Assembly: GCF_025847205.1 (NCBI RefSeq)
Contig: NZ_JAOYTH010000014.1
Coordinates: 113,841 to 177,840 of the forward strand
DNA length: 64,000 nucleotides
Direction: 5' to 3'
Source of the DNA: Pararhizobium sp. YC-54
GTDB taxonomy: Bacteria; Pseudomonadota; Alphaproteobacteria; Rhizobiales; Rhizobiaceae
Shown here: positions 7,046 to 22,626 of the stretch, piece by piece
Layout of the letters: each line of letters starts with the position of its first letter
How positions within the stretch are numbered: the stretch's first letter is position 1
Translations under genes and position numbers: made by a program
The notes under the pieces: model-generated
What the model saw: the letters and a program-made list of their open reading frames with translations, nothing else
Database searches by the model: none
Told to the model about the DNA's origin: nothing

Positions 7046-7062
7046 ACAATTTCGGATTCAAG
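7030..7062 (-). promoter_or_regulatory. Possible RpoH-type promoter for hsp20
   Basis: CTTGAA, the sigma-32 -35 hexamer, lies at 7057-7062 on the minus strand, about 100 bases upstream of the hsp20 leader end. A weak CAAATC -10 candidate lies 18 bases downstream. The -35 match is exact but the -10 is poor, so the call is tentative. Confidence 0.35.
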
Positions 7063-7109
7063 AGCGTCGCCAGAAAAATTCTTGCCTTTTTTGCCTCTGC
7101 TGGCGCCAC

Positions 7110-7239: not shown

Positions 7240-7721
7240 ACAGAAGCGGCCGACGATGAGCTGAACGAAGACGTCGCCGGACGCCGGGCTTTCGCATGGC
7301 GGCGTCTCGGCTGGCCCGTGCTGACATCGCCGGGCCATCCGGATCGTAGTTCGGTCTCGCCGATACCATGCAAAGCTTTTTCCTGTCGCCCTCCAAGCCG
7401 ACCGAGAGCGGGATCATCTGGGCGCGGGAGCCGTGGCAGATTATAAAGAAGCTTTTGTCGGAATCGATGTAGCCAAGCTGAACATCCGTCAGCCGCTTTG
7501 TGGCCGGTAAATGACCGACGCCCGCAGTAAGATAGGAACGGCCCCGGACGCACAATCGGGAATGCGGTAGCCAACCGGCGCATCAGAGGTTGATCACCGA
7601 CGTCCTTGAGTTCCGCCTCCACCCGTACGCGATCATCATCATGAACAGTCGTTCGTTAGAACGGCCGGTTGCACGTGCCACGAGCATTGGCAACGGACAT
7701 CAGAGCGGTGTCGCGCTCACA

Positions 7722-7823
7722 CCTTGGCAGGATAAGCCCAGGGAAGCATCTCATCGATCCGGCACCACGCTCAAGCAGCATTTCCTCGACCTCACGCAGG
7801 CTTAGGTCGAACCGGTGGTTCTT
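7722..7823 (-). mobile_element. Fused scraps of IS6-type and IS66-type transposases
   Basis: Minus-strand bases around 7771-7817 encode HRFDLSLREVEEMLLERG, the N-terminal motif of IS6/IS240-type transposases. The next segment, in another frame at about 7722-7768, encodes RIDEMLPWAYPAKV and a stop, which resembles the end of IS66 TnpC. Both are very short. The rest of 7240-7976 contains no gene that I recognise. Confidence 0.5.
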
Positions 7824-7976
7824 CTACTTGGCGGCAGGCTCGCTCATTCACCCCGCCCCGCCAATTCATTAAGCCGAAATCAGCACCCTTAAAACCGATG
7901 GCGCGCACCATACAAGCGCTTCTTCATTCAGGGTGGCACTTACCCAGGCGGCGCCAATCATGACGAGTGCATAGGA

Positions 7977-8603
7977 TTACTGTGCAGCATCAATCATGGC
8001 AATCCAAGCGACGGCGCGGCGGGCTGCGTCGGCGAGTACAGGTTTGGGCGCCTTATACCATTCGTTTTCCGGCAGCTCGCGCTTGACGCGAACAAACCCT
8101 ATTGCGTTGTCAACTGTTGGGAATTCCTGCGGCAGTGTCACGTGGAGAAAGAGCGAAACAACGGCAACGGAGCGGGAGCGGCCGCCGCGGCAGTTGATCA
8201 GCACACTGCCGCGTTCGCGCCTCGGATACGAGGGTTTTTCCGGCAGGACCTGCTCAAGTGCAGCGCGCAGGATATAATGGGCGGCAACCATTTGGGTCTC
8301 GGGATTGCCCTCGCCGTCGATCAGGCCAATTTTGAAGTACCGGATTTCGCCCGGTCCGTAGACGCTGCCCTCATGGTCCGAGACGACCCGCGGCTGCTCA
8401 ACGAAATTGAAGTCCAGATTGACTGCACAATTGACAACCGTGGTGATACCTTTGCTGCGCAAAAGATTGAGATCGCTGGCTCCTTCTTTGCCTGAAATGA
8501 ACAGATCAACGCCGTAAAGCGGATGCTGCTCGTAGATGAGACTGAGCTTTGGCAACTCGCGCGATTCCGGTTGATGAGGGATGTCCCGTTCCAATTGCTG
8601 CAT
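7977..8603 (-). CDS. Dual-specificity-type cysteine phosphatase (copy 1)
   Basis: A 208-residue cytoplasmic phosphatase of the PTP/DSP fold. The active-site loop is NCRGGRSRS, with nucleophile Cys138 and Arg144 in the CX5R spacing, and a probable general acid Asp96 in GLIDGEG. KGITTVVNCAVNLDFNF upstream is the usual core strand. The usual histidine before the cysteine is replaced by asparagine. The start at 8603 has GGAG seven bases upstream and is better than an in-frame ATG further out. It is the last gene of the seven-gene transporter operon and closely resembles the phosphatase at 21074. A small phosphorylated metabolite is a likelier substrate than protein, judged from the neighbours. 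Confidence 0.78.
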   Translation of the reverse strand: MQQLERDIPHQPESRELPKLSLIYEQHPLYGVDLFISGKEGASDLNLLRSKGITTVVNCAVNLDFNFVEQPRVVSDHEGSVYGPGEIRYFKIGLIDGEGNPETQMVAAHYILRAALEQVLPEKPSYPRRERGSVLINCRGGRSRSVAVVSLFLHVTLPQEFPTVDNAIGFVRVKRELPENEWYKAPKPVLADAARRAVAWIAMIDAAQ

Positions 8604-8680
8604 CTTGTTTCTCCGTAGTCGGCGATCTGGGGCGGCTGCCATTCCATGGTTTTGAGTTATCGATCGTCGTTGATTATAGC

Positions 8681-9598
8681 TCAGGCGCTCGCCACGATCC
8701 CGCTCTGCCGTGCTTCGGCCTTTTCGATGCGGCTGTCCGAAATGGTGTGCGCGACCCGCGCAAGCGTCGGATAGTTCGCCCCCGCCCCTGTTCCGATATA
8801 GCCGGGGCAGAGGAAGTCGGCAGAGCCCTCCGCCACCTTGCCGAGCGTCAGCGGCTCGTAGCTCCCGCCGGCATTCTTGAGGATGAGCGTGGCTGCGGCG
8901 ACATCCCAGGCATTAACACCGAAACCGGCAGCGGCATCAGCCCAACCGGCGGCGACATGGGCGACGCTGAGGGCCGCACTTCCCGGACGCCGCAAGGTCG
9001 AGAATGTTTCAACCAGCTCACCTAGATGGGCAAGCGCGACGTCGCGGCCATCGAGCCGGAAATCGCGGGAGACCGGATAGCCGGTGATCAACGTGGCCCG
9101 CGTCTCCTCCTGGACGGAGCGGGAACGCAGCGGCATGCCGTTCAGATATGAGGCGTTGAGGTCTGCTGAGAACATCAGATCAGCGACGGGATCGTAAATC
9201 GCGCCGGCGACCACCTCGCCATCGATGACGGCGCCAATCGAAATGCACCAGAAGGCCAGGCCACGGGCAAAATTCGCGGTGCCGTCGATCGGATCGACAT
9301 ACCACTGGATTTCGCCATTGCCGATTTGCCCTCCCTCCTCGCCCATGATCGCAGAATTGGGCGCATGTTCAAGGATGAAAGCCCGGATGCTCGCTTCCGC
9401 GCGTTGGTCATGGATGGTTACGATGTCGTGCAGATCGACCTTGTAATCGACAGCCATGTCCGAGCGGAAAGCCTCAAGCAACGGATTGCGCACGGCAAGT
9501 GCTGCCGATTTCGCAATTTCCATCAGCCTTGCCGAGCGGGCAAGCGCCTCCTCGTTTGCGGATTTCGCTTCGGGCGAGGAAGAGCTTTGCATCGGCAT
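8681..9598 (-). CDS. Inositol-monophosphatase-family phosphatase (copy 1)
   Basis: A 305-residue enzyme of the Mg-dependent IMPase/FBPase/CysQ superfamily. Metal-site motifs are GEEGG at 86-90, DPIDGT at 102-107, and NAWDVAAA near 230. ANFARGLAFWCISIG follows the second motif as in inositol monophosphatases. No signal peptide, so it acts in the cytoplasm. It follows the first binding-protein gene by 57 bases and precedes the cysteine phosphatase by 77. Substrate could be an inositol phosphate, a sugar phosphate or another phosphomonoester. A diverged copy is at 21735, in the same order relative to a cysteine phosphatase. Confidence 0.83.
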   Translation of the reverse strand: MPMQSSSSPEAKSANEEALARSARLMEIAKSAALAVRNPLLEAFRSDMAVDYKVDLHDIVTIHDQRAEASIRAFILEHAPNSAIMGEEGGQIGNGEIQWYVDPIDGTANFARGLAFWCISIGAVIDGEVVAGAIYDPVADLMFSADLNASYLNGMPLRSRSVQEETRATLITGYPVSRDFRLDGRDVALAHLGELVETFSTLRRPGSAALSVAHVAAGWADAAAGFGVNAWDVAAATLILKNAGGSYEPLTLGKVAEGSADFLCPGYIGTGAGANYPTLARVAHTISDSRIEKAEARQSGIVASA

Positions 9599-9655
9599 GT
9601 CCAGTCTGTCGTTTCGGGATGGAATACCGGCGCGGTGGAGGCCGCGCCGGAGGGG

Positions 9656-10780
9656 TTATTTCGTGTAATTCACTCGCCAGAAATCCTGCCATTCTTCACG
9701 GCGGTCGAAATCGTCGAGACCAGTGGCGGAATTATAGTTGAACAGCTCGCCGGCGACCTTCATGAGGCCCGACGGTTCATCATCCGGCATCTTGATATCG
9801 GTATTGGTCGGCAGCTTGCCGTCCTTCATTTGCGGCGAGATGCCTTCTTCCGTGAGGATATAATGGATGAAGAGCTTGGCGGTGTTCGGGCTCTTCGTCT
9901 TGGAGGCGATCAGGCCGAGCTTGATATAGCTCCAGCCAACCCAGGGATCGAGACCAGCGCAGATACCGAGCTTATACCCTTTGTCCGCATTGTCGCGAAA
10001 CTTCGCGGAGCTGAGGAGCCCGATGAACGGCTCCTTCTGTCCCGGCGCGCCCACAGCTTCGGCCACCGGATCGTCACCATCCGTCGCCAGCGGTGCATTC
10101 TGCGCCAGTGCCTTGATCCATGCAGCCGCAGCACTCTTTTCGCTGGTTTCAAGTGCCTTGCCGAAATGCGCCTTGTAAGCTTCAGCCACCTTGCCGGTAC
10201 CATGCGTTTCCAGCTGGTTGAACCAGTCGGTATAGTTGCCCTTGGTCAGGGGATCGACCATCGCGACCTTGCCCTTCCAATTCGGCTCGGTCAGTTCCCA
10301 AATATTGGCAACCGGGCATTTGTCGTAAGCTTCGGTATTGTAGGCCCAGACATTGGCATTGGTAGAAATCGCCAGCGGGTTCTGAAACTGCGCCGGGATC
10401 TTTGATGTCATGTCGCCCGGCAGATGGTTTTCCACGAAGTTTTCCGGCAGCAGCTGGGCAAGAGCTGCCGGTGCGTCGGTGATCAGCACGACGTCGCCCT
10501 GCACGTTGCTCGCCTGGCTTTCGCGGATAATCATTTCCAGCTGGCTGTTGGCCGAGACCTTCATGCCCGTCGCCTTCAGCCCGTATTTGGCGCTGAAATT
10601 TTCAGCCATTTCGACGATCTTGCCGGTGCTGTCGTAAATGTTGATCGGCTTTTCCTGCTTTGCCGCAGCCACCAGCGCGTCGAGATCGGAAGTATCGTCT
10701 GCGCTTGCTGAACCGGCAGATATGCCAGCAGCAAGGCCAGCGGCGATCACGGCCAATGTCAGATGCTTGTTTCGTTTCAT
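9656..10780 (-). CDS. Periplasmic binding protein of AfuA/Fbp type (paralogue 1 of 3)
   Basis: A 374-residue family-1 binding protein with a signal peptide ending near residue 27 (SAGSASA). The mature part contains INIYDSTGKIVEMAENF, LEMIIRESQASNVQGDVV and a C-terminal KTKSPNTAKLFIHYILTE, the pattern seen in iron-type and hexose-phosphate-type (AfuA) binding proteins. It is the third of three tandem paralogues and is closest to the one at 12008. Iron seems unlikely because the operon carries phosphatases and no siderophore or Fur features. A phosphorylated organic ligand is inferred. Confidence 0.8.
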   Translation of the reverse strand: MKRNKHLTLAVIAAGLAAGISAGSASADDTSDLDALVAAAKQEKPINIYDSTGKIVEMAENFSAKYGLKATGMKVSANSQLEMIIRESQASNVQGDVVLITDAPAALAQLLPENFVENHLPGDMTSKIPAQFQNPLAISTNANVWAYNTEAYDKCPVANIWELTEPNWKGKVAMVDPLTKGNYTDWFNQLETHGTGKVAEAYKAHFGKALETSEKSAAAAWIKALAQNAPLATDGDDPVAEAVGAPGQKEPFIGLLSSAKFRDNADKGYKLGICAGLDPWVGWSYIKLGLIASKTKSPNTAKLFIHYILTEEGISPQMKDGKLPTNTDIKMPDDEPSGLMKVAGELFNYNSATGLDDFDRREEWQDFWRVNYTK

Positions 10781-10843
10781 GGTTTCCCCTCCAAAGAAAA
10801 ATGAAGGCAGGCCAGAGACTGATGCCCCTTGCCTGCCCTTTGG

Positions 10844-11983
10844 TTATTTCTTGTAGTTCATACGCCAGAAATCCTGCCAGCTCTCGCGCTTGTCGAGATC
10901 GTCGGCAGCGGTTGCTGCATCAAACGCCATCAGTTCATCGATATGCTTGGCAACGCCGGACGGTTCGTCCGCCGGAAGGCCGATCTTGGTATTTCCGGAG
11001 ATCTTGCCATCGGCGGTCTGCGGCGTGATCCCCTCTTCCGTCATCAGATAACGCACGAAGAGCTTTGCCGCATTGGGGCTCTTCGTCTGCCCGGCGATGA
11101 GGCCGAAACCGGGATAAAGGAAACCGGAGAAGGGCTGGACGCCGCTGCAAAGGCCGAGCTTCAACCCCTTAGCCTCGTTGTCACGGTATTTCGCCGTCGA
11201 GGTTATGACGAAGAAGGGTTCCGCCTGTCCCGGCGCACCGGCGGCTTCCGCCACAGTGGTCGAGTCCGAGAGCAACGGTTCGTTTTCGGCAAAGGCTTTC
11301 ACCCAGGCTGCGGTCGCGCTCTTTTCGCGGGTCTCCAGCCTCTTGCCATAGAGGTCTTCATAGGCCTTGGCGACATCCGCATTGTGGTGCATTTCGATCT
11401 GGTTGAACCAGTCGGCGTAGAGCGGCTTGTCGAAGAGGTCGAGCATGGCGAGCTTGCCCTTCCACTGGGGTTCGGTCAGTTGCCAGATATTGGTAATCGG
11501 GCACTTGTCGTATTTGTCCGTGTTGTAGGTCCACACATGCGGATCGGAGACGACGACGAGCGGGTTGCGCAGTTTTTCCGGAATGTCGCTTGCAAGGTCG
11601 GGAGGCGTCCAGCTGGTCGCGATGCCCTCCAGCAGAAGCTGACCCATCGCGGAGGCGACGTCGGTTCCGACGCTCACATCACCGACGATACTGCCGGCCT
11701 GATGCTCGCGGATCATCAGTTCGACCTGGGTTGCCTCGTTGACTTTCTTGCCGCTGGCTTGAACACCGTATTTGGCGGTGAAGGCCTCGGCCGTATCGAC
11801 GATCTTTCCGGTGACCGCATAAACGGTGATCGGCGGTTCCTTCTTCGCCGCCTCGATAAGGGCGTCGAGATTGAAAGCATCTTCGGCATGAACCGCGCCG
11901 CCGATCACTGTTGCAAGGATAAGGGCCAGTGCGGAGGCGGCGGCCTGCCGCCTCCCCTTCTTTGCCTGTCTGGTTTGGGTCAT
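10844..11983 (-). CDS. Periplasmic binding protein of AfuA/Fbp type (paralogue 2 of 3)
   Basis: A 379-residue paralogue of the flanking binding proteins. A basic start RQAKKGRRQ is followed by a hydrophobic signal sequence and a cleavage region VIGGAVHA. The common core is visible as PITVYAVTGKIVDTAEAF, VELMIREHQAGSIVGDVS and TKSPNAAKLFVRYLMTEE. It is the most divergent of the three, with AVTGK in place of DSTGK and GTDVASAMGQLL in place of SDAPAAMAQLI, so it may bind a different ligand. It is 24 bases from paralogue 3 and 63 from paralogue 1. Confidence 0.8.
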   Translation of the reverse strand: MTQTRQAKKGRRQAAASALALILATVIGGAVHAEDAFNLDALIEAAKKEPPITVYAVTGKIVDTAEAFTAKYGVQASGKKVNEATQVELMIREHQAGSIVGDVSVGTDVASAMGQLLLEGIATSWTPPDLASDIPEKLRNPLVVVSDPHVWTYNTDKYDKCPITNIWQLTEPQWKGKLAMLDLFDKPLYADWFNQIEMHHNADVAKAYEDLYGKRLETREKSATAAWVKAFAENEPLLSDSTTVAEAAGAPGQAEPFFVITSTAKYRDNEAKGLKLGLCSGVQPFSGFLYPGFGLIAGQTKSPNAAKLFVRYLMTEEGITPQTADGKISGNTKIGLPADEPSGVAKHIDELMAFDAATAADDLDKRESWQDFWRMNYKK

Positions 11984-12007
11984 GATATCTGCTCCCTGAT
12001 CCGCCGC

Positions 12008-13135
12008 TTATTTCTGATAATTCACCCGCCAGAAGTCCTGCCAGGTCTCCCGCGCATCCCAGTCATCGAGACTGGTCGCCATGCTATAGGGCAAGACCTG
12101 ATCGAGTGCGGCGCCAATGCCCGACGGCTCGTCGGCGGGCGGTTTAACCTCGGTATTGGTCGACATCTTGCCGTCAATCGCCTGCGGCGCGATGCCTTCT
12201 TCGGTCATGACATAGTGGATGAAGAGCTTGGCGGCGTTCGGGCTGTCGGTACCTTTGGTGATCAGCCCGACACCGGGATAGAGCCAGCCGAGCCAAGGCT
12301 TCAGGTCCTTGCAGAGGCCGAGCTTCATGCCTTTGTCGGCATTGTCGCGGAACTTCGCCGAGCTGATCAGGCCCATGAAGGCCTCTTTCTGGCCGGGAAC
12401 GCCGACGGCTTCGGCCGCGGCAGCATCGGCATCCGTGAGCAGCGGTGCGTTGGCCGCAAGTGCCTTGACCCAGGCGGCGGTTGCGCTTGTCTCCCCTGCC
12501 TGGAGATCCTTGCCGTAGAGTTCCTTGTAGGCAGCAGCGACTTTGTCGTCGCCGTGCTTGGCCATCTGGTTGAACCAGTCGACATAGGATGCCTTGCCGA
12601 GCGGATCCTGCATGGCGACCTTGCCCTTCCACTTCGGCTCGGTCAGTTCCCAGATGTTGGAAACGGGACACTTGTCAAACAGTTCGGTGTTGTAGGCCCA
12701 GACGTTGGCGCTGGTGACTATCGTCAGCGGGTCCTGGTACTCGGCCGGGATGCTCTCGGCGAGATCCGGCGGCAGCCAGCTTTCGGCAAAACCCTGCGGG
12801 ATCAACTGGGCCATGGCGGCGGGCGCATCGCTGATGATCGAGACGTCGCCCTGAACATTGTTGGCGCGTGCCTCCCGAATGATCATTTCGAGCTGGGCCG
12901 ACGCCTTGACCTTCGATCCTTCGGCGGCGACTCCGTATTTCTTGGCGAAGTTCTCCGCCATTTCGACGATCTTGCCGGTGCTGTCATAGACCGTAATCGG
13001 CTTTTCCTGCTTGGCAGCTTCGATCAGCGCATTGAGGTCGAAAGGCTCCTCTGCCTTCGCCGCACTACCAAACAGGACCAGAACGGCCGTTGCGCATAGC
13101 AGGTATTTCCTGCCGTCTGTCATTTTCCGCTTCAT
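12008..13135 (-). CDS. Periplasmic binding protein of AfuA/Fbp type (paralogue 3 of 3)
   Basis: A 375-residue family-1 binding protein and the first of the three tandem copies in transcription order. The signal peptide runs through FGSAAKA near residue 28. The core has PITVYDSTGKIVEMAENF, LEMIIREARANNVQGDVS and TDSPNAAKLFIHYVMTEE. It is nearly the same as paralogue 1 in these regions, which points to a recent duplication. The gene follows the ATPase gene by 43 bases. Confidence 0.8.
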   Translation of the reverse strand: MKRKMTDGRKYLLCATAVLVLFGSAAKAEEPFDLNALIEAAKQEKPITVYDSTGKIVEMAENFAKKYGVAAEGSKVKASAQLEMIIREARANNVQGDVSIISDAPAAMAQLIPQGFAESWLPPDLAESIPAEYQDPLTIVTSANVWAYNTELFDKCPVSNIWELTEPKWKGKVAMQDPLGKASYVDWFNQMAKHGDDKVAAAYKELYGKDLQAGETSATAAWVKALAANAPLLTDADAAAAEAVGVPGQKEAFMGLISSAKFRDNADKGMKLGLCKDLKPWLGWLYPGVGLITKGTDSPNAAKLFIHYVMTEEGIAPQAIDGKMSTNTEVKPPADEPSGIGAALDQVLPYSMATSLDDWDARETWQDFWRVNYQK

Positions 13136-13178
13136 TCTGCTCCTCCTTCAGCAAGCATAAGTTCGTTCCCAGATCGTC

Positions 13179-14312
13179 TCAGTTGTAAGTGCTGTTCCTC
13201 AGCAGAGCGTCGGCTTCGGTTATCCGCTGGCCGTCTGCATCGAACGCATGCAGCGCTTCTGGCGGTGCGTAGAAGAACACGCGCTCGCCACTGTCGACGC
13301 GCGGTAAGGCATGCGTGGTCAGGAACAGCGTGTGGTTCTCGCTCCTCAATTCGAGAATCCAGCTGCCCCCGGTCGGCAGCACGCCGGTCACCGTCATCTC
13401 GCCGGAGAAGCTGCCCTGCGGCACGTCCTCCAGCTTGGCCGTGTAACCCATGGCTTCCGGCCGCATACCGATCGAACCGATGCCGCGCAGCCGCGGATAG
13501 CCGGCTGCAAGGTAGGCTTTCGCCTTGTCGGCAACATCAGAGACCCCCGGCTTTCCGAAGGTCAGGATATTGATCGGCGGGCTGCCGACGAATTCCGCAA
13601 CGAAACGGTTAGCCGGGCGATCGTAGATATCGTTGGGCGTGCCCATTTGCTGCAACGTGCCCTCGTTCATGACGGCAATCGTCGTCGCCAACGTCATGGC
13701 TTCCCACTGATCGTGGGTGACGAAGACGATCGTCGTCTTGAATTCCTTGTGCAGCCGCTTCAACTCGGCGCGCATTTCGAGCCGCAGCCGGGCATCCAGA
13801 TTGGACAGCGGCTCGTCGAGCAAAAGCACGCCGGGATTGACGGCAAGCATGCGGGCCAGCGCCACGCGCTGCTGCTGTCCGCCGGAAAGCTGCGACGGAT
13901 AGCGGTCGCGGTATTTGGCGATATCAAGCGCCTGCATGACGCGCTCGACGCGGGCCTCACGCTCCGCCTTCGGCAGCTTGCGAAGACGCAAACCGAAATC
14001 GGTGTTGCGCTCGATCGTCAGGTGCGGCCAGAGCGCATAGCTCTGGAAGACAAGACCCATCTCCCGCTTTTCCGGCGGGACGAAGATGCCGTCCACGACA
14101 GAGTCGATGATCCTGTCCCCGACCCGGATTTCGCCGCCGGAGAGGTTTTCCAGGCCGGCGATCATGCGCAGCGTCGTGGTCTTGCCACAGCCGGAAGGAC
14201 CAAGCAGGCACATGAACTCGCCGTTGCGGATTTCGAGGTCGAGGTCGGAAACCGCGTTGGCGGAATTTACACCGTAGTTTTTCTGCGCTCCACGCAGGTT
14301 GATGGTAGGCAT
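13179..14312 (-). CDS. ABC transporter ATPase (AfuC/FbpC/PotA type)
   Basis: A 377-residue ATPase for the two-domain permease encoded just upstream. It shows Walker A GPSGCGKTT near residue 38, FQSYALWPHLTIERN for the Q loop, signature LSGGQQQRVALARML, Walker [16 protein letters not shown] and the H-loop in VTHDQWEAM. The C-terminal 130 residues form the TOBE-like part usual for this group. Its start overlaps the permease stop by one base (TGATG). FbpC-type ATPases serve iron, sulfate, polyamine and sugar-phosphate transporters, so specificity comes from the binding proteins. Confidence 0.86.
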   Translation of the reverse strand: MPTINLRGAQKNYGVNSANAVSDLDLEIRNGEFMCLLGPSGCGKTTTLRMIAGLENLSGGEIRVGDRIIDSVVDGIFVPPEKREMGLVFQSYALWPHLTIERNTDFGLRLRKLPKAEREARVERVMQALDIAKYRDRYPSQLSGGQQQRVALARMLAVNPGVLLLDEPLSNLDARLRLEMRAELKRLHKEFKTTIVFVTHDQWEAMTLATTIAVMNEGTLQQMGTPNDIYDRPANRFVAEFVGSPPINILTFGKPGVSDVADKAKAYLAAGYPRLRGIGSIGMRPEAMGYTAKLEDVPQGSFSGEMTVTGVLPTGGSWILELRSENHTLFLTTHALPRVDSGERVFFYAPPEALHAFDADGQRITEADALLRNSTYN

Positions 14313-16165
14313 CAGCTTCCAAGTCCTTCTGCAAGATTTGTGCGGGTCATCTTTTGGGCCAACAGCGTGCCGAAATAGGCGATGGCGGCGATGATCAGCA
14401 CCACGGCATTTGCGGCCTGCGTGTAGTGGTAATCGACCAATCGCAGGGAATAGGTGGTCAGCACGTCCGTGCTGGGCACAGCCAAGATCACAAAGAGGCT
14501 GAGCCCCTTGATGCCCGAGATGAACGGCAGGAGTACGCCCGTCACCAGCGATCCCTTCTGGATCGGGATGACGATCGAGATCATGCGGCGAAACCAGCCA
14601 GCACCGGCGATCTGCGCCGCTTCTTCAGGGTCCTTGCCGAGCTGGGTCATGGCCGATATGCCGGCACGCGAGGCGTAAGGCATTTGATCGGCAATAAGAG
14701 CGAGGACAAGAATGGTCACGGTGCCATAGAGGGCCGGCATCGGACCGCGCGGCACCGCAAACAGCGACAGATAAGCGGCTGCAAAGGCAATACCCGGCAC
14801 GAGGTAAGGCAGGAACGTGACCTGACGGAGATAGACCGACAGGGAACGGACCGGTGTGCGGATAACGACATAGCCGACGAGCAGACCGAGGATGCCGGAC
14901 ACCAGCGACGCAAGCCCGACGATCATCATCGTGTTCTTGGCCGCAGCCCAAAGCTCGGGACTGAGCAGGATACCCGTCTGCAACGCCACCGTATGAAGGT
15001 CGGTGCCGATCCAGTAATCGAGGGTGAAATTATCGAGCGTAAATTTGGCCGGCATCTTCATGACCGTCGAGAGGGCAAGCGTCAGCAACGGCATTCCGAC
15101 TGAAAGGATGAAGATCGTCGCCGCAAAGCCGGTGGCTGGAAGGCGCATCTTGCCAAGGCGGCTCTGCCTATTCATCGATCCCTTTGAGCCAATGGTCACG
15201 AAGCGGCGTGCTTCCCGCACCAGCCGTGCGTCGATCATCAGCGTAATGATGCCGATGAGCATGATCGATGCAGCCACGACCCCGGCAACACCGGTCTGGC
15301 GGGACGCAATGCTGCGGAACAGCGAGGTCGAGAGAACCTCGAATTTGACCGGAAGGCCGAGCACGTAGGGAACACCGAATTCGCCCAGGCACTTTGCGAA
15401 AATCAGTACCATCGCGGACATGAGGGCCGGGCGCATCAGCGGCAGTATGACTTGAACCGCGACCTGGTAGCGGTGGGCACCGAGGATTCGGGCCGAATCC
15501 TCCAACTGCGAATCGAAGCGGCGAAGCGCCGAGCCGAAAAGCAGGATGACGAAGGGCGTGTAGTGAAGCGCCAGAATGATCGTGATGGGAAAGCGGCCAT
15601 AGGCAACCCAATCCGGCGGCGTCAGGCCCATGGCCTCAAACCAGCCGGGTTGGCCGCCAATCGTGCGGTTCTTGAACAACGTCGTCCAGGCAAGCGCAAA
15701 CGTCCAGGCGGGCAGCATGTAGGGCACGATCAGAGCCGTCGCAAACCAGCGGCGGCCGAACATGTCCGTACGGCTGATCAGCCAGGCAAGCACAGTGCCG
15801 ATCACCAGCGACAACGAGATGGCGCCCAGTGCGACGGTGAGGGTGTTGAGCAGCGGACGCCAGAACAAGTCGGTCGCGACCGGTGAGAAAAATGCCCGAT
15901 CGAGATAGTAGAGCGTGAGATCGCCGACATCTTTGCCGAGGCGCCGCTCATGTCCGAACTGCACGCGCACCGCGTCGAGAACGATCGAGATAATCGGAAC
16001 GACGATCAGATAGGTAAAGATCAGAGCAGTCAGAACGCCAATGAGCGTCGTCGGCTCACGAAGCGCGACCTTTAGGCGGTATCGCCAGGCCTGCCATGCC
16101 GAAGGCGCGGTAACAGGCTTTCGAACTAGAGCCTCGCCCTTCGCCCGTTCACTTAGAAGTGCCAT
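14312..16165 (-). CDS. Fused two-domain ABC permease (AfuB/FbpB type)
   Basis: A 617-residue inner-membrane protein containing two permease domains in one chain, as in FbpB/AfuB. About twelve membrane spans are predicted. The two EAA loops are visible as SQLEDSARILGAHRYQVA near residue 225 and KDPEEAAQIAGAGWFRR near 520. The start at 16165 (MALLSER) has GGGGAG about six bases upstream; an in-frame start at 16189 is possible but poorly placed. It is the first gene of the operon running to 7977 and is divergent from the LacI-type gene at 16696. Confidence 0.85.
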   Translation of the reverse strand: MALLSERAKGEALVRKPVTAPSAWQAWRYRLKVALREPTTLIGVLTALIFTYLIVVPIISIVLDAVRVQFGHERRLGKDVGDLTLYYLDRAFFSPVATDLFWRPLLNTLTVALGAISLSLVIGTVLAWLISRTDMFGRRWFATALIVPYMLPAWTFALAWTTLFKNRTIGGQPGWFEAMGLTPPDWVAYGRFPITIILALHYTPFVILLFGSALRRFDSQLEDSARILGAHRYQVAVQVILPLMRPALMSAMVLIFAKCLGEFGVPYVLGLPVKFEVLSTSLFRSIASRQTGVAGVVAASIMLIGIITLMIDARLVREARRFVTIGSKGSMNRQSRLGKMRLPATGFAATIFILSVGMPLLTLALSTVMKMPAKFTLDNFTLDYWIGTDLHTVALQTGILLSPELWAAAKNTMMIVGLASLVSGILGLLVGYVVIRTPVRSLSVYLRQVTFLPYLVPGIAFAAAYLSLFAVPRGPMPALYGTVTILVLALIADQMPYASRAGISAMTQLGKDPEEAAQIAGAGWFRRMISIVIPIQKGSLVTGVLLPFISGIKGLSLFVILAVPSTDVLTTYSLRLVDYHYTQAANAVVLIIAAIAYFGTLLAQKMTRTNLAEGLGS

Positions 16166-16695
16166 TATATCTCCCCGTAACCACAGCATTGCCCCTGCAC
16201 TCCTACAGATGCCTTCGAACGCGTTGCGTCATCCCATTGCGGGTTGGCATGATGCGCTCCGGCGCGGCAATGGTTTCAATCCTCCAGCATCAGGCCTCCC
16301 GGCCTGCTTAACGGCGATCATACAGCCCCTCCCAGAGGCATCGTCATCTTCGAAAAAATGGAATAAAAATTCCGTTTTATCCATCACCGTGGAATACATG
16401 ATCTATCGACGAAGCCGTTTTGTCAACGAAAAAATGCACACGCGGTCATTAACTTATCCAATTGATTTTATATGCTTATTTTTGCACGCGTCGCGAAATA
16501 TTCGACGCACTCTGCGAACGTGTGCCTCATCTTCCAAATCCCATCGAAAATCATGTGCGGGAACGCATCCGTTCAAAACCGGGCGGCGTGCGTATTCTCG
16601 TCGCTCGCATTCGGCATAGGCATAAATTTTTAGTTTGGAAAAATCGGTGCAATGTGGCCTGTAATATCAGCACTTGAATTGCATCGGGGACGTGA
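16166..16695. promoter_or_regulatory. Divergent promoter region between the transporter operon and lacI-type gene
   Basis: This 530-base non-coding stretch should hold promoters for both directions. The decamer TGCACACGCG at 16435-16444 also forms part of the palindrome in front of the second phosphatase operon (22590-22626). Related half-sites are TGCACGCG at 16483-16490 and GAACGTGTGC at 16516-16525. An inverted repeat GCGTCG/CGACGC lies at 16488-16493 and 16503-16508. The AT-rich part 16360-16500 is the likely promoter core. These are candidate binding sites for the adjacent LacI-type protein. Confidence 0.45.
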
Positions 16696-17682
16696 ATGGG
16701 AAGAGGCTTCGTAACTGCCGAGGAGGTGGCCAAGAAGGCGGGTGTTTCGCGCTCGGCCGTTTCGCGCACATTCACCCCCGGCGGTAGCGTGTCGAAGGCG
16801 GTTCGACGCAAGGTTATGAAAGCTGCTCAGGAGCTTGGCTACCGTGTCAATCGGCTGGCGCAGGGTCTTAACAATGATCGTTCGAACCTGATTGGCGTTG
16901 TTGGCGCAAATCTCGGATCTCCTTTCATTTCCAAGCAGCTTGATCTCCTGAGCATCGGCCTGCTGCGCCGCGGGCTGCAATGTCTTTTGCTGAATGCAGC
17001 CGACGCCCGCAAGGATATAGCACCGCTCATCGAGCTTCTGTTCGAGTTCCGTGCACAGGCGATCGTTGTTCTTTCCGGTGAGCCACCCGCATCAATTATC
17101 GATGAGTGCATGGCCAATGGCGTCAGGCTCATCCTGATCAATCAGAAGCTTGATCGCACTGACACAAACATGGTGCTGAGCGACGATTCCCATGGTGCTG
17201 ATCTCGCCGCGATGCGGCTGATCGAGGCCAAGTGCCAAAAAGTTGCAGTGATATCAAGCGGCAGCAAAACACCGGCACAGATGCGTCGTGCTAGCGCCTT
17301 CAGCCAGCGCATGGCCATCGAGGGTGTCGACGTCGTTTCCTGGTCCGATGGCCCGACAAGCTATGAAAGTGGCTACCAAGCAGGGCTCGACCTGTTGGGC
17401 GACAAAACAATTGATGGCGCATTCTGCGTCACTGATCTGCTTGCGCTGGGGTTTATGGACTCTGCCCGGCTGGAGATGGGCCGCCGCGTGCCGGAAGACC
17501 TGTCGATCGTCGGCTTTGACGATATCCCCCAAGCCGGCTGGAAAAGCTATCAGCTGACAACCGTCGGACAGTCTTTCGACGCCTTGACCGAGAAAGTGCT
17601 GACGGCGCTGGCAAGCGACGATCCGGAAACCCGGCTTCAAATCGTGCCCGTTGCCGTGGTCGAGCGCATCACTGCCCGTTAG
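16696..17682 (+). CDS. LacI-family transcriptional regulator
   Basis: A 328-residue repressor-type regulator. The N-terminal helix-turn-helix reads VTAEEVAKKAGVSRSAVSR at residues 6-24, followed by the hinge RVNRLAQGL. The rest is a periplasmic-binding-protein-like effector domain with GVVGANLGSPF, ILINQKLDRTDTN and IVGFDDIPQAGWKSY. It sits between the two phosphatase/transporter operons, diverging from one and ending tail-to-tail with the Na/Pi gene (stop codons overlap). That placement makes it the probable local regulator of both. The effector is unknown; a phosphorylated sugar or polyol, or its dephosphorylated product, would fit. Confidence 0.85.
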   Translation: MGRGFVTAEEVAKKAGVSRSAVSRTFTPGGSVSKAVRRKVMKAAQELGYRVNRLAQGLNNDRSNLIGVVGANLGSPFISKQLDLLSIGLLRRGLQCLLLNAADARKDIAPLIELLFEFRAQAIVVLSGEPPASIIDECMANGVRLILINQKLDRTDTNMVLSDDSHGADLAAMRLIEAKCQKVAVISSGSKTPAQMRRASAFSQRMAIEGVDVVSWSDGPTSYESGYQAGLDLLGDKTIDGAFCVTDLLALGFMDSARLEMGRRVPEDLSIVGFDDIPQAGWKSYQLTTVGQSFDALTEKVLTALASDDPETRLQIVPVAVVERITAR

Positions 17683-19322
17683 AGCGCCTGCTTGATCCGG
17701 CTTTCGCTCAGAAGGCCGCTCTGGTCGAGGATCGGATGGGCGACCGAGGCGATGTGGGCGTTGATCCGCTTCAGGTCGCGCAGCATGTCGAGATGCACGG
17801 AACTCGTCTGAATACTGTCGGCCCGGCCGTCGCGAAGACGCTGCAGGTGCCGCTCGGCCGACTGCTTTTCCAGCCGGCGCACATCTTCCTTCACTTCGAC
17901 CAACCGGCGGGCAAGGTCGGCATTCTGGGTCGCGAAAACCGTTTGTGCCAGGCGGATATTGTCGAGCGTGATGGTGAAAAGGTGTTCAAGCTCCGTTTTT
18001 CCGTCGACGGAAAATTGCAGGCCGAGATTGATCTTCTTGGCGATTTCCGGTCGAATGCCTTTTTCGATGATATCGCCGATATGCTCGAGATTGATGGCAT
18101 ATTCGACGATATCCATGGCGCGGCGGTGATCCTTGCCGCTCAACCCATCTTGGCCGACTTTCGAGACATAGACCTTGATCCCGTGCTGGATGCGGTCAAC
18201 CCGTCCCTCCAGCGCGCTGATGTCGGCGAGCTTGGACAGGTCGTTATGGCGCATGGCCTCGCCGGCCTGCACCAGCATGCGCTCGATCAGGTCGCCGACC
18301 AACATGGCCTCGCGGCTTGCTCCCGCAAGCGCTGCGACCGGCCGGTTGAGGTCGTGGCTGTCGAGATAGCTGCGGTCGGCTTCGCTTTCCTGCTTCTCTG
18401 GAAGAACTGCTGTGGTTGCGCGCAGGAGCAGCGGCGATAGCGGCCAGGCTATGATGGCAACGGCGAGATTGAAAAGCAGATGCGCATCGACCGCGAAATT
18501 GGGGTGCGAGAAAGGCGACATCTCCAGCAATTCGGCCCCGTAACCGGCAAGCGGAAGGGCTGCAGTGCAGCCGATGGCCCGCACGATCAGGTTGCCGAGG
18601 GTGACGCGACGGGCAGCGGCTGGCGCTTTCAACGTTGCCAGCACAGGCGGGATGGCGCCTCCAAGATTGGCGCCAAGAACCAGCACGATGACCAGGCTCG
18701 TAGCGATGCTGCCGTTTGCCGCGAGCGACAGGATGAGAACGACGATGGCAAGGCTTGAGGACGCCAGTACGGCCAGCACCGCCGAGAAAATCAGCGCGAC
18801 TGGCCAGGCATTGCCAAGCATGGTGATGAAGAGGCCAAGCGCCGGGGACTGGCGTATAGGATCAGTCGCAGCAGAGAGCAGGTGTAGCGACAGCAGCATC
18901 AGGCCGACCCCAACAAGAGCAGCGCCCGCGCCCTGCCGCGGTGCAGAATTGGTGCGTGAGAGAATGACGCCGGCAAGGATCAGCATCGGCGAAAGCCAGC
19001 CGAGGCCAAGGGCAACGATCCATGCCGTTGTTGCAGTGCCTACATTGGCCCCAAGTAACACGATCTGCGCCATGGCCGGCACGATCAGATCTTTCTCCAC
19101 AAAGGAAGCCACCATCAGGGCCGTTGCCGTAGAACTCTGCAATGCAACCGTGGCGATGAAACCGGCGATGAAGGAGCGGAGCCCACCACGGGTGCCGGCG
19201 GCAAGGCCGACGCGCAGCCTGGCGCCAAAGGCGCGTGTCATACCGTCCTTGACCTGGCCAAGCCCAAAGAGCAGCAACGCGACGGCGCCGAAGAGATTGA
19301 TGCTGATAATTACCGATTCCAT
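17679..19322 (-). CDS. Na/Pi cotransporter-family protein with PhoU-like tail
   Basis: A 547-residue membrane protein. The first 300 residues hold the two Na/Pi-cotransporter repeats, with VALQSSTATALMVASF in the first and a second set of membrane spans that includes ANLGGAIPPVLATL. Residues about 340-547 form helical PhoU-like repeats (SREAMLVGDLIERML, AINLEHIGDIIEKGI). The start at 19322 has AGGTGA just upstream. E. coli YjbB, of this architecture, exports phosphate. Last gene of the operon with three phosphatases, so venting of released Pi is a sensible role; uptake cannot be excluded. Confidence 0.82.
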   Translation of the reverse strand: MESVIISINLFGAVALLLFGLGQVKDGMTRAFGARLRVGLAAGTRGGLRSFIAGFIATVALQSSTATALMVASFVEKDLIVPAMAQIVLLGANVGTATTAWIVALGLGWLSPMLILAGVILSRTNSAPRQGAGAALVGVGLMLLSLHLLSAATDPIRQSPALGLFITMLGNAWPVALIFSAVLAVLASSSLAIVVLILSLAANGSIATSLVIVLVLGANLGGAIPPVLATLKAPAAARRVTLGNLIVRAIGCTAALPLAGYGAELLEMSPFSHPNFAVDAHLLFNLAVAIIAWPLSPLLLRATTAVLPEKQESEADRSYLDSHDLNRPVAALAGASREAMLVGDLIERMLVQAGEAMRHNDLSKLADISALEGRVDRIQHGIKVYVSKVGQDGLSGKDHRRAMDIVEYAINLEHIGDIIEKGIRPEIAKKINLGLQFSVDGKTELEHLFTITLDNIRLAQTVFATQNADLARRLVEVKEDVRRLEKQSAERHLQRLRDGRADSIQTSSVHLDMLRDLKRINAHIASVAHPILDQSGLLSESRIKQAL

Positions 19323-19397
19323 CAGATCACCTCGCTTTTCGGCGTGAGCTACAAGCCTGCCCATCGACGATCTTGCCAACCGGAAGAGCGGCCCCGA

Positions 19398-21080
19398 TCA
19401 TACCGCTAGAAGCTCCTGCCGCGGTGCAATCTGGACCGTTACCGTCCGCGAACCGCGTTCGGCACGCTCGAGAAAAAGCCCGAGGGCGCCGAAGAAAATG
19501 CCGAGGAAGCTCTCCAGGGAGCCGTCGTGGTCCTTCGGTTCGCGTCCGAAACGCTCCGCCAGCGCTCGATACAGGACGAGCCTTTCGGGCTCGATATGCG
19601 GCAGTGCCAGAGCTGCGCCCTGGCGCAAACAGTACCAGTCGACGATCAGGTCCAGCATCGGCAGGGAGGCGGACAAGGAACCACCGAAAGGCTCCCCTGC
19701 TTTTCCGCTGAACGAGTCAAGGACATTCGCTACACGTTGTTTTTGGATTGCCGCCACGATACCGGCTGGCCATTCTTTGGCGAAATAACGATGGCGCACC
19801 AGCGCGCGCTTGTGGTCGCGCAGGAAGACGCCGTAATTTTCCGCCGTGAAGGCCGGATCCCGCCCCTCCCCGGCAAGTGCGGCTTCCTGCGCATAGCCCG
19901 TGCAAATGCGGTTGTTGACCGGCAACGCGGACATTTCCACGGTTTCGATGGCAATCGACTCGTTTGAGGGATGAACAACCTTGAACGCGGGCGGAAAAGC
20001 GACGAGCGACGGCACGGCAATATTGGTAATCGATCGATCCTCACCCCCGCGCCGGGTGACGCCTTCGACATGCAAATGCCCGCTGAAATGAACGGAAAGC
20101 CCAGCCTGTAATAGCGCATCCTCGACCGCTTTGCGCGGCGTGCGGCGCACGACATTGGTTTCGCCGAACAGCGCGCTTTCGGCACCTGTCGTGCCATCAA
20201 AGGGGTCGAGCGCCGGATAGTGAGAGAAGGCGAGCAGTATTTTACCAAGCGCCTGCGCCCTGCGGTTTACATCGCCAATCCAGCCTATGATGAAGGGCTT
20301 GCTTCGCAAAAGCGCATTCCAGCCGCCCGAGGTACTGTCGGTGAAGGCCACCTCTTCCCCTGCCTCGAAGAGGCCATCAAGCGGCTCGAAGATGTTGGCG
20401 TCAATCATCATCAGCCAGAGCCCAGGCTCGGGTTCGACGAGATAGGAAGCATCCATCAGCTGGTAGACGTTACTCTCGTCAGGAGAGCGGACTTCGTAGA
20501 GACGATCTTCCGGCGCATCGGAGCCGCTGAACGGCGTTTCCCAGTGGAGATAGTCCGGGCGGCGAAAATAGCCGAAGGCCGCCATCGGGTCGAGGCCGGC
20601 GGGATAGCCTTTGCAATACATGCCGTCATTGAAGACGACATGCTCGCCGGCCAGGCGGGCGTCGCTGGAGACCGAAAGACCCCTGCCGTTTTCCGTCAGG
20701 AACTCCTTGGTGTGGTGACGGCCACGCGGTCCGAAGATATCGTGGTTGCCCGGCAGCGCGTAGAAGGCCGTTCCATAGGCGTCGCTGTGGCGTTGCAGGA
20801 TGCCCCTCAGCGTTTCGGTGGTGGTGCGTTGCCCGTCGTCGGTATAGTCGCCAAGCAGCACCACATGACGGATATTGCGGCGCTGTACTTCGTCGAGCGC
20901 CGCATGGAGCGCATCGGCGCTTTCATTAAAGACGCGGGTGGATTGGCGCGTATCCGACCAGCTCCGTATGGTCATGCTCTGACCATCGATTTCGATGCCG
21001 GGAAAGCCGAAATCGGCCCCCGTGTCATGGAAATGGGCGTCGGCGATGATGGCGACGGACGGAAGGCAGCGTGTCAGCAT
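19398..21080 (-). CDS. Calcineurin-like metallophosphoesterase
   Basis: A 560-residue enzyme with a complete two-metal phosphoesterase site: DAH at 14-16, GDYTDDG near 75, GNHD near 112, and GHLHVEG near 338. The C-terminal 200 residues are an unassigned domain. There is no signal peptide, so it probably acts in the cytoplasm on a small phosphoester or phosphodiester. Its start overlaps the end of the cysteine phosphatase gene by seven bases, which implies coupled translation. It fits as a further dephosphorylation step in the proposed phosphorylated-compound pathway. Confidence 0.8.
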   Translation of the reverse strand: MLTRCLPSVAIIADAHFHDTGADFGFPGIEIDGQSMTIRSWSDTRQSTRVFNESADALHAALDEVQRRNIRHVVLLGDYTDDGQRTTTETLRGILQRHSDAYGTAFYALPGNHDIFGPRGRHHTKEFLTENGRGLSVSSDARLAGEHVVFNDGMYCKGYPAGLDPMAAFGYFRRPDYLHWETPFSGSDAPEDRLYEVRSPDESNVYQLMDASYLVEPEPGLWLMMIDANIFEPLDGLFEAGEEVAFTDSTSGGWNALLRSKPFIIGWIGDVNRRAQALGKILLAFSHYPALDPFDGTTGAESALFGETNVVRRTPRKAVEDALLQAGLSVHFSGHLHVEGVTRRGGEDRSITNIAVPSLVAFPPAFKVVHPSNESIAIETVEMSALPVNNRICTGYAQEAALAGEGRDPAFTAENYGVFLRDHKRALVRHRYFAKEWPAGIVAAIQKQRVANVLDSFSGKAGEPFGGSLSASLPMLDLIVDWYCLRQGAALALPHIEPERLVLYRALAERFGREPKDHDGSLESFLGIFFGALGLFLERAERGSRTVTVQIAPRQELLAV

Positions 21081-21682
21081 GATTGCGGCTGCTTTCTGCC
21101 TTCGATGACATCAATCCATTCAGAAGCACGGCGGGCAGCGGCGTAGAGCATCGGTTTCGGAGTCTCGAACCATTCATCCGGCCGCAGTTCTCGTTTCTCG
21201 CGGATCGCAGCGACTGCATCATCCAGAGTGGGGTAAAGGTGCGGCTGCTGCTTGTGAAGGAAAAGGGCTACGAGCGAGACGGAGCGGCTGCGGCCGCTAC
21301 GGCAATTCACGAGCACATTACCACCGTCCGGGAAGGGGTAGGTTTCCCGCTTTGGCATCGTCTGCCGTAGCGCGCCATCGAGAATATAGTAAGCGCCGAG
21401 CATCATCGTGTCGGGGCTGCCTTCACCGTCGATCAGGCCGAGCTTGTAGTACCGGACATCACCATAACCAGTCGCGCGCAGATCGCTCTCTTCTGACGCC
21501 GCCGGTACAAAATTGATATCGAGGTTGACTGCACAGTTGACGACCGTGGTGATGCCATGCCGGCGCAAGAGCCAGAGATCGCGCGCGCCATCGCTGCCGC
21601 CGATATAAATAGCCGCGCCATGCGGGCCGAGGCCTTCGGCAATCAGGCTGATTGCAGGCCGGGCATAAACAGGTCCATCCAT
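21074..21682 (-). CDS. Dual-specificity-type cysteine phosphatase (copy 2)
   Basis: A 202-residue homologue of the protein at 7977. The CX5R loop is NCRSGRSRS, preceded by RHGITTVVNCAVNLDINF and YKLGLIDGEGSPDTMM, which carries the probable general acid. The start at 21682 is preferred because GGAGGA lies seven bases upstream; the ATG at 21688 is too close to it. It lies 46 bases downstream of the IMPase-family gene and overlaps the phosphoesterase gene. The shared order IMPase then cysteine phosphatase in both operons indicates duplication of a gene pair. Confidence 0.78.
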   Translation of the reverse strand: MDGPVYARPAISLIAEGLGPHGAAIYIGGSDGARDLWLLRRHGITTVVNCAVNLDINFVPAASEESDLRATGYGDVRYYKLGLIDGEGSPDTMMLGAYYILDGALRQTMPKRETYPFPDGGNVLVNCRSGRSRSVSLVALFLHKQQPHLYPTLDDAVAAIREKRELRPDEWFETPKPMLYAAARRASEWIDVIEGRKQPQSC

Positions 21683-21734
21683 TTCCATTCCTCCGAACGC
21701 ATGATGCGCGCTCTTCGCAGGCTGACCTTCAGGA

Positions 21735-22568
21735 TCAAGCCGTCGTTGCCAGTTGCCGGTCCTGTACTGTGGTCAGCGGGATGTTCGAGGCCTTGCTGAC
21801 ACCCTGCGCGAGACCTGCGGCGGCCGCGAGCACCGGCCCGCCCCCCTCCAAACTGCCGATATCGAGGAACGGGCAAACGTCGCCACCGGCTTCACTGACG
21901 AGCAGCAGGCCCGCAAGGCAATCCCAGGAATTCATGTGCAATTCTATGTAACCATCCGAGCGTCCATCGGCGACATAGGCAAGCGCCAAAGCCCCCGACC
22001 CCGCGCGGCGGACATTGGTGCCCATATCGAGCAGATTTTTGACGACATCGAGATAGGTGGTATTCGGCACGCGGGTCGACCATCCCATCTCGATGGATGC
22101 CGCATCGAAGCGCTCCGTCTGTGCGACCTTGATCGGCAATCCGTTCCGCGTTGCTCCCTCGCCACGACGGGCGAAATAAAGCTCGTTAAGAGCGGGATTA
22201 TAAATCGCGCCGATTTCGGTGCGCCCATTTTCGACATAGGCGATGGAGATGCAAAAATGAGGAATACCGCGGGCAAAATTGGCTGTTCCATCCACTGGGT
22301 CGACGACCCAGACACGCTGGGCAATGTCGCCACCGCCCTCTTCCCCGAAAAAACTATCATCTGGAAAATGCGTGGAAAGCAAATCTCGAATATGCGCTTC
22401 TGAGGCGGAATCCGTCTCAGTCAGAAAATCTTGAGGGCCTTTCATCGAATAGCTGCGCGTTGTCTCGCCGTAAAACCCCTTCAAGACAAGCTCTCCGGCA
22501 GAGCGAATAACATCACGGCATAGTTCGGCGCGTGCTACCAAAGTGTCTATGAAGGGTAATGTTTCCAT
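21735..22568 (-). CDS. Inositol-monophosphatase-family phosphatase (copy 2)
   Basis: A 277-residue Mg-dependent phosphatase. Motifs are GEEGG at 75-79, DPVDGT at 90-95 and NSWDCLAG near 230, with ANFARGIPHFCISIA after the second motif. It is closer in length to classical inositol monophosphatase than copy 1. The start METLPF at 22568 follows GGAG by five bases; longer starts would cross the palindrome at 22590-22626. It is the first gene of the operon IMPase, cysteine phosphatase, phosphoesterase, Na/Pi transporter. Confidence 0.85.
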   Translation of the reverse strand: METLPFIDTLVARAELCRDVIRSAGELVLKGFYGETTRSYSMKGPQDFLTETDSASEAHIRDLLSTHFPDDSFFGEEGGGDIAQRVWVVDPVDGTANFARGIPHFCISIAYVENGRTEIGAIYNPALNELYFARRGEGATRNGLPIKVAQTERFDAASIEMGWSTRVPNTTYLDVVKNLLDMGTNVRRAGSGALALAYVADGRSDGYIELHMNSWDCLAGLLLVSEAGGDVCPFLDIGSLEGGGPVLAAAAGLAQGVSKASNIPLTTVQDRQLATTA

Positions 22569-22589: not shown

Positions 22590-22626
22590 AATTGAACGCG
22601 TGTGCATATTGCACACGCGTTCAATT
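22590..22626 (-). promoter_or_regulatory. Perfect 16-bp inverted repeat, probable operator
   Basis: AATTGAACGCGTGTGC at 22590-22605 is followed by five bases (ATATT) and its exact reverse complement at 22611-22626. It lies 21 bases in front of the IMPase-family start and so would block or control transcription of that operon. No T run follows, so it is not a terminator. The core decamer TGCACACGCG recurs in the control region of the transporter operon at 16435-16444, which suggests the LacI-type protein as binder. Confidence 0.55.

Follow-up and report, generated by a model that had tools for sequence, protein, structure and literature searches.

Why should an ABC (ATP-binding cassette) importer that databases label "iron(III) transport system" be encoded together with phosphatases and a phosphate transporter? 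The question arises from 64,000 nucleotides of Pararhizobium sp. YC-54 (contig NZ_JAOYTH010000014.1, positions 113,841 to 177,840; hereafter the window), part of a 6.24-Mb genome in 54 contigs. Twelve genes at window positions 7977-22568 encode an Afu/Fbp-type ABC importer, three periplasmic binding proteins (SBP1 to SBP3), five hydrolases, a Na/Pi transporter with a PhoU domain and a LacI-family regulator. A preliminary description of this DNA had listed these genes, and model searches of the window proteins bore out every item and stated family. It had also proposed that organic phosphates are taken up whole and dephosphorylated inside, with the carbon kept. That scheme is partly supported by conserved linkage, a shared operator, hydrophobic leaders that are present on the binding proteins and absent from the phosphatases (by hydropathy), and neighbouring genes of inositol catabolism (iol). 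We think it probable that the cluster imports inositol phosphates or glycerophosphoinositol whole, strips the phosphate internally and feeds the iol pathway.

Do the twelve genes belong together? We aligned 21 relatives of the cluster's dual-specificity phosphatases (DSPs), scanned 84,980 species genomes, found 299 places that encode a relative and kept the best 80 loci, whose gene content was read by tblastn with the window proteins. These DSP loci also carry LacI (77/80), the ATPase (75/80), an inositol-monophosphatase-family (IMPase) gene (74/80), a binding protein (73/80), the permease (73/80), the calcineurin-type phosphoesterase MPP (70/80) and Na/Pi (55/80). The counts are lower bounds, since six of the loci are shorter than 15 kb and others end at a flank. 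The permease is of two types, one with at least 60% identity (59 loci) and one with 34-60% (14 loci). Seven loci have neither: L024 and L043 retain IMP2, DSP2, MPP and LacI; L025 retains DSP2, MPP and LacI; L028, L065 and L075 are short contigs; and in L056 the transporter is a different one. In a family-level sample of 247 genomes, the permease was found at E <= 1e-120 in 14; DSP at E <= 1e-30 was found in 14 genomes with handles in the range of that sample, and 12 genomes had both (Fisher p of about 1e-16, phylogeny being ignored and a 394-genome sample assumed to contain the same 247). DSP itself is patchy, occurring in 3 of 289 genomes class-wide, 7 of 397 order-wide and 31 of 394 family-wide, the window's own genome counted each time. 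The closest named matches are Rhizobium species, and plasmid p2 of Sinorhizobium sp. B11 has all twelve genes in identical order, annotated in its record as iron ABC transporter, inositol monophosphatase, dual specificity phosphatase, etc. The preliminary description had suggested asking whether these families co-occur in genomes; the set recurs in most of the 80 DSP loci. We conclude that the twelve genes are one conserved unit whose recurrence exceeds chance.

Are the genes also regulated as one? Both operons lie on the minus strand. Read 5' to 3', the transporter operon comprises permease, ATPase, SBP3, SBP2, SBP1, IMP1 and DSP1, and the second operon IMP2, DSP2, MPP and Na/Pi-PhoU; the ends of the LacI and Na/Pi genes overlap by 4 bases. 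When the permease-LacI gap was aligned across relatives, the block ATGATCACGTGTGCATT appeared, followed by TTGACA, and the palindromic operator block was present in 30/30 scorable loci (permease above 75% identity, LacI in its usual place). We built a position weight matrix (PWM) from the permease-promoter block of those 30 loci and scanned the 64-kb window. The site at the window's own permease promoter, AATGACCGCGTGTGCATT, scored 27.9 bits because the matrix was built from that block; the two sites at the IMP2 promoter, with 21.8 and 21.3 bits, are independent of it. The next-best scores were 12.5 bits, on the opposite strand of one palindrome, and 11.4. The pattern WTGNNCRCGTGTGCAW has three exact matches in the whole genome, one at the transporter promoter and two at the second-operon promoter; one-mismatch matches numbered four, against six in a backward control. 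An operator precedes IMP2 in L026, L030, L042, L050, L051, L053 and L080 as well, which include clusters of the second transporter type. Among 20 stretches scanned, five had no operator above 13 bits (L056, L058, L071, L081 and L098, the last an unrelated stretch of the window's own genome), and sites were weak, below 15 bits, in L067, L077, L084 and L089. Since the operator is common to both promoters, a single LacI protein most likely governs both operons in Rhizobiaceae-type clusters.

Where might the carbon go? Eight of the 80 loci, from seven genera, have iol genes (iolG, C, D, E, B) beside the cluster, and in four of these the distance is no more than 110 bp. In Neorhizobium (L051), iolG lies 106 bp from IMP2, with iolC, D, E and B also present; in Aureimonas (L053), it lies 107 bp from Na/Pi, with iolC, D and E; in Alloyangia (L060), 378 bp from IMP2, with iolC and D (IolG by tblastn only); and in one Devosia (L067), 100 bp from Na/Pi, with iolB and D. 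In a second Devosia (L072), the edge of the locus holds part of an iolC, with 2.3 kb between it and the permease. Parasedimentitalea (L073) has iolD, E and B and, after 265 bp, the permease, all on one strand; Pelagibacterium (L081) has iolG 5.1 kb off and a partial iolC; and Cucumibacter (L087) has a run of iolB, E, D and C, of which iolB is 106 bp away from Na/Pi. L109 likewise has iolC, D, E and B, and L110, whose contig equals that of the Pelagibacterium locus L081 in length, was left out of the iol-locus count. Curated cut-offs were passed by IolG of L051, L053, L067 and L081, by IolB and IolE of L073 and L087, by IolD and IolC of L087 and by IolB of L109; the IolD piece of L073, cut by the locus edge, reached 302 of 715.

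Could this proximity be chance? In 61 genomes of the family, 39 IolG proteins pass the cut-off in 268 Mb, a density at which the loci, 1.57 Mb in all, should contain 0.23. We saw five, four of them cut-off-checked, giving Poisson probabilities of 4e-6 for five and 9e-5 for four, with locus relatedness ignored and the density taken from one family, to which several of the loci do not belong. As a control, we used 62 proteins taken from five stretches elsewhere in the window's own genome, a match being 48% identity over half coverage. Sixteen matched anywhere, three in one locus each and 13 in at least four loci; the 13 comprise ABC ATPases and ugp genes, plus what belongs to a paralogous cassette (L129): LacI, binding protein, permease, ATPase and IMPase. 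Each iol query matched four or five loci. The preliminary description had offered phosphorylated sugars, polyols or inositol phosphates as substrates; because iol genes flank the cluster, inositol esters are specifically supported, and we narrow the list to inositol phosphates or glycerophosphoinositol.

Several observations weigh against an inositol substrate. In 72 of the 80 loci, no iol gene lies within the stretch. In L051, the operator sits between iolG and IMP2, and the window's own genome has iolG and iolD on other contigs. Other carbon-use genes also recur near some loci: F3 and F4, a sugar-type ABC transporter (nine loci each, including L017; named by eye); F6, a short-chain-dehydrogenase-like gene (six closely related Agrobacterium-type loci; named by eye); and F10-F12, which are ugp genes (five loci). 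Fifteen gap-gene families occur in at least five loci, and F1, F7, F8, F13 and F14 were identified by no model. The preliminary description had held that transporter homologues always found without phosphatases would tell against it. Close homologues do not show that pattern, but two relatives with 61-64% identity (L105 and L102) show, in the stretches retrieved, no such phosphatase. By their first residues, the neighbours of L102 and L105 resemble a sensor kinase and an exported binding protein. Two further transporter relatives (L104 and L103, 42-49%) do have an IMPase-family gene, of 30% and 41% identity.

Perhaps, then, the cluster is an AfuABC-like importer of other phosphorylated sugars (hexose, heptose or pentose phosphates), which the iol genes adjoin only as a fellow sugar-type catabolic unit? 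The scarcity of iol genes across the loci would suit this, as would the LacI-family regulator, the recurrence of F3, F4 and F6 near some Agrobacterium-/Ensifer-type loci and the best Protein Data Bank (PDB) sequence match of SBP3, which is AfuA (1.3e-5). Yet, of the 62 controls, those recurring in at least four loci are either components of ABC/Ugp transport or members of the paralogous cassette (LacI, IMPase included), and no other enzyme recurs in this way; also, a key AfuA residue appears not to be retained. We regard this explanation as unlikely.

That residue is Glu229, a ligand of the sugar ring without which AfuA loses glucose 6-phosphate binding, according to PMC4546632. At its position (aligned 285), all 31 rows have L, M, T, S or N; both of our alignments agree, in a weakly aligned stretch (2.7 and 5.4 bits). 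We inferred an AfuA numbering offset of 2, with which Ser37, Thr150 and Glu229 all land on the right residue type. The two alignments place Ser37 and Thr150 differently; in one, Thr150 corresponds to Ser/Thr in 25/31 and Ser37 to Ala in 22/31. Six residues are invariant in the aligned binding proteins (Lys55, Lys75, Arg87, Lys181, Lys261 and Arg263), and Lys181 lies within the loop that aligns with the AfuA phosphate site. The predicted fold of SBP3 (pLDDT 91.5) is of class II/cluster D (FbpA-like) and belongs to an FbpA/AfuA/MctA class (HitA 27.1, MctA 27.0, AfuA 24.7, P5PA 23.8), a class that does not choose the ligand.

Ferric-binding proteins of the FbpA type have an adjacent pair of iron-binding tyrosines. 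No YY occurs anywhere in the 31 aligned binding proteins. Hence the database label, under which the cluster would be a ferric-iron or metal-citrate importer with the phosphatases as unrelated neighbours, fits poorly; the phosphatase linkage and the single operator for both operons also speak against it, and we consider it very improbable. With no tyrosine pair and, it appears, no Glu229 equivalent, the binding proteins probably belong neither to AfuA in the strict sense nor to the classical ferric binders. No NCBIfam model matched them at 1e-3. Import of thiamine, polyamines or 2-aminoethylphosphonate was rejected, the curated models listed all being below cut-off.

What could the hydrolases act on? 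The DSPs reach 27.6 and 30.9 bits against a Pfam DSPc cut-off of 33.5, with the CX5R loop intact in both, and the P-loop reads CR[GSA]GRSR in 82 of 83 DSP proteins, the remaining one being cut by a contig end. Its basic residues at +1 and +4 match the placement in PTEN-type loops (CKAGKGR/CKGGKGR). We claim no PTEN-family membership, because overall the DSP sequence is nearer VHR than PTEN. Both window IMPases have the metal motifs GEE and DPxDGTxN[FY]. Across the loci, 27/27 of the IMP1 class have both, and in the IMP2-class set 68/78 have GEE and 63/78 DPxDGTxN[FY]. At what we take to be the equivalent of human Glu213, Glu was found in 64/64 scored IMP2 proteins and Gly in 25/25 scored IMP1 proteins (10 IMP2 and two IMP1 were not scored, and four paralogues below 50% were left out). 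The fold of MPP resembles Lmo2642 and, less closely, GpdQ. It was previously argued that five phosphatases fit a multiply phosphorylated substrate. The argument is weakened, because MPP may be a diesterase and phosphodiesters such as glycerophosphoinositol would then fit equally well. In six loci from Aminobacter, Microvirga, Bosea and Mesorhizobium (L080, L082, L083, L089, L090 and L091), a HAD-family hydrolase, likely a further phosphatase, lies between the binding proteins and IMP1; the L080 member (7306-8118) was model-checked.

Would the phosphate leave the cell? The Na/Pi protein passes TIGR01013 (324.7 bits against a cut-off of 306.15) and has paired QSST/ASSS repeats. Passages of PMC11389368 describe YjbB as an exporter of inorganic phosphate (Pi). 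Export of Pi by the Na/Pi-PhoU protein is plausible, and we would give it an even chance; it is compatible with organic phosphate used as carbon, and no Pho box was seen in the cluster (consensus scan; six matches in the window against 3.4 expected). Against export counts the failure to find the Na/Pi gene in 25 of 80 loci, some of them cut short. Alternatively, the cluster might be a module of phosphate homeostasis or signalling, in which internal phosphate levels or the phosphorylation of proteins are adjusted by Na/Pi-PhoU together with the phosphatases, and the importer is a passenger. The PhoU domain and the likeness of the DSPs to VHR point that way. However, Na/Pi was not found in those 25 loci, whereas the importer is found in 73 and the IMPases in 74, and neither the operator that serves both operons nor the missing Pho box suits such a role. 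We give this little credence.

We also asked whether general glycerophosphodiesters (glycerophosphocholine, -ethanolamine, -glycerol) could be the substrates, with inositol as one head group. A complete ugpBAEC operon (sn-glycerol-3-phosphate importer) stands at a distance of 2.7 kb, L037, L040, L044 and L045 have a UgpB-family gene 7-8 kb away from IMP2, and the MPP fold would be in keeping. In L056 (3154-10600), the DSP ends a ugp-type run, coming after a UgpB-type transporter, a glycerophosphodiester phosphodiesterase (GDPD) gene, a regulator-like gene and a HAD hydrolase. A recount of ugp genes raised our estimate for these substrates by the smallest step and lowered that for the inositol esters by as much. 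The two IMPases and the iol genes nevertheless point to inositol, and the existing ugp operon would presumably make a second general importer redundant. We judge this possibility improbable, though less so than iron import or phosphate signalling.

Returning to inositol esters, the cluster would form one LacI-controlled regulon for the use of phosphorylated inositol compounds. The ligands of the three binding proteins would be related compounds (inositol monophosphates, lower inositol phosphates and/or diesters, for instance glycerophosphoinositol or cyclic inositol phosphate), all delivered to a single ABC importer. Inside the cell, MPP would open phosphodiesters, the IMPases and DSPs would remove phosphomonoesters, and the resulting myo-inositol would enter the iol pathway, while Na/Pi-PhoU would balance, and probably export, excess Pi. 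Ligands, enzyme reactions and the direction of Pi flow are given here as we infer them from the genes.

A bolder proposal, which we put forward tentatively and think rather less likely than not to hold in full, is that this is the first dedicated bacterial ABC importer of intact inositol phosphates, including ring-polyphosphorylated ones: PTEN-like phosphatases would strip the ring inside, inositol would pass to the iol pathway, and rhizobia and marine alphaproteobacteria would gain carbon and release phosphate. Among the forms of organic phosphorus in soil, inositol phosphates are a major one, and the usual description of their use by bacteria is that phytases act outside the cell and that Pi and inositol are then taken up. 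Our search of titles and abstract openings, in which subscription journals are little covered and absence is thus unproven, found no bacterial importer system for inositol phosphates or glycerophosphoinositol. If true, the proposal would change the view of how rhizobia get carbon from plants and release phosphate to them, and it would correct the "iron(III) transport" names these genes now bear.

The presence of the cluster in Sinorhizobium meliloti 1021 makes it testable in a model strain. On pSymB, the set occupies roughly 165.7-179.2 kb and includes two binding proteins, one fewer than in the window. Its permease, ATPase and two binding proteins appear to be SMb20155-8, as the genes were counted back from the FIST and histidine-kinase genes, taken as SMb20163 and SMb20164; PMC12542648 names SMb20164 a histidine kinase. 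In the passages seen of PMC4414408, SMb20155-8 is called an ABC transporter operon and is among the genes strongly up in ecpR1 experiments, with no substrate stated.

Positions of the cluster genes, operator sites and neighbouring features are collected in the table. IMP2 could start at the ATG at 22566-22568; a longer GTG open reading frame (ORF) reaches into the operator.

Table. Features of the window (window coordinates)
Feature	Position	Strand	Evidence or remark
DSP1, dual-specificity/PTP-type phosphatase, NCRGGRSRS loop	7977-8642	minus	Pfam DSPc 2.8e-6, sub-cut-off; P-loop census
IMP1, inositol-monophosphatase family	8681-9598	minus	Pfam Inositol_P 158 bits; PDB matches IMPase/SuhB; residue census
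SBP1, periplasmic binding protein, hydrophobic leader	9656-10780	minus	Pfam SBP_bac_11; hydropathy
SBP2, periplasmic binding protein, hydrophobic leader	10844-11983	minus	Pfam SBP_bac_11; hydropathy
SBP3, periplasmic binding protein, FbpA/AfuA/MctA-class fold	12008-13135	minus	Pfam SBP_bac_11; fold comparison
ABC ATPase	13179-14312	minus	ABC_tran 116 bits; under UgpC and PhnT2 cut-offs
ABC permease, fused two-half	14312-16189	minus	two BPD_transp_1 stretches (Pfam)
TTGACA a short way downstream of operator (candidate -35 box)	16421-16426	minus	conserved in relatives aligned
Operator at permease promoter	16433-16450	minus	PWM 27.9 bits; exact pattern match, one of three in genome
Weaker upstream operator-like half site	16513-16526	minus	alignment of relatives
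LacI-family regulator	16696-17682	plus	Pfam LacI and Peripla_BP_3
Na/Pi transporter with C-terminal PhoU domain	17679-19379	minus	Na_Pi_cotrans 122 bits, PhoU 70 bits; TIGR01013; QSST/ASSS repeats
MPP, calcineurin-type phosphoesterase, possibly diesterase	19398-21080	minus	
DSP2, dual-specificity/PTP-type phosphatase, NCRSGRSRS loop	21074-21688	minus	Pfam DSPc 2.8e-7, sub-cut-off; P-loop census
IMP2, inositol-monophosphatase family	21735-22568	minus	Pfam Inositol_P 201 bits
Operator copy 1, IMP2 promoter	22591-22608	plus	PWM 21.3 bits, outside matrix training; exact pattern match
Operator copy 2, IMP2 promoter	22608-22625	minus	PWM 21.8 bits, outside matrix training; exact pattern match
ugpBAEC	1040-5224	minus	bits/cut-off: UgpB 499/411, UgpA 369/335, UgpE 398/297, UgpC 538/432
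ROSE RNA thermometer	6933-7024	minus	61 bits; inside 5' part of HSP20 ORF 6466-7338
319-aa ORF upstream of cluster	23116-24075	minus	no Pfam match at 1e-3; by eye phytanoyl-CoA-dioxygenase-like
GC-rich region (69% GC at 44-48 kb)	42827-49717		1520-aa ORF (no Pfam match at 1e-3) on one strand, 2296-aa ORF on the other
ORF fusing DUF2817 and ABC ATPase domains	59180-61246	plus	

The ROSE element and its HSP20 ORF lie in the interval that separates the cluster from the ugp operon. Elsewhere in the same genome, on contig 12, a second cassette (L129, 7436-12937) encodes relatives of LacI (41%), the permease (25%), the ATPase (45%) and an IMPase (41%), with a PhnS2-like binding protein (215 bits against a cut-off of 393) whose family has a member near the main cluster in 12 loci. 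L129 is possibly a second organic-phosphate importer. An operator-like site upstream of it has one mismatch and scores below 13 bits in the matrix scan; it may be chance, given four one-mismatch sites against six control matches. The L129-type neighbours, the HAD hydrolases and the L056 gene run are organic-phosphate themes.

How does the cluster compare with known systems? The hexose/heptose-phosphate importer AfuABC of Actinobacillus and Citrobacter shares the class II/cluster D fold, and for the cluster's importer, too, uptake of a phosphate ester in intact form is proposed. It differs in sequence (about 20% identity, with Glu229 unconserved by the alignments made) and in that the cluster has three binding proteins, co-regulated phosphatases and a Na/Pi protein; the abstract and first Results part of PMC4546632 note no phosphatases. 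The pyridoxal-5'-phosphate importer P5PAB is distant, and the word "phosphatase" is absent from the main text of PMC8427247.

UgpBAEC with UgpQ is an importer of glycerol-3-phosphate and glycerophosphodiesters with its own diesterase, and resembles the proposed system in that an organic phosphate is imported whole and hydrolysed inside. The cluster's binding proteins, however, are of another family, its ATPase scores 356 against the UgpC cut-off of 432, it has no GDPD gene, and the ugp operon is separate. YjbB-type proteins share the Na/Pi domain. Finally, known iol operons import free inositol, not inositol phosphates; the iol pathway would here be the destination of the cluster's product.

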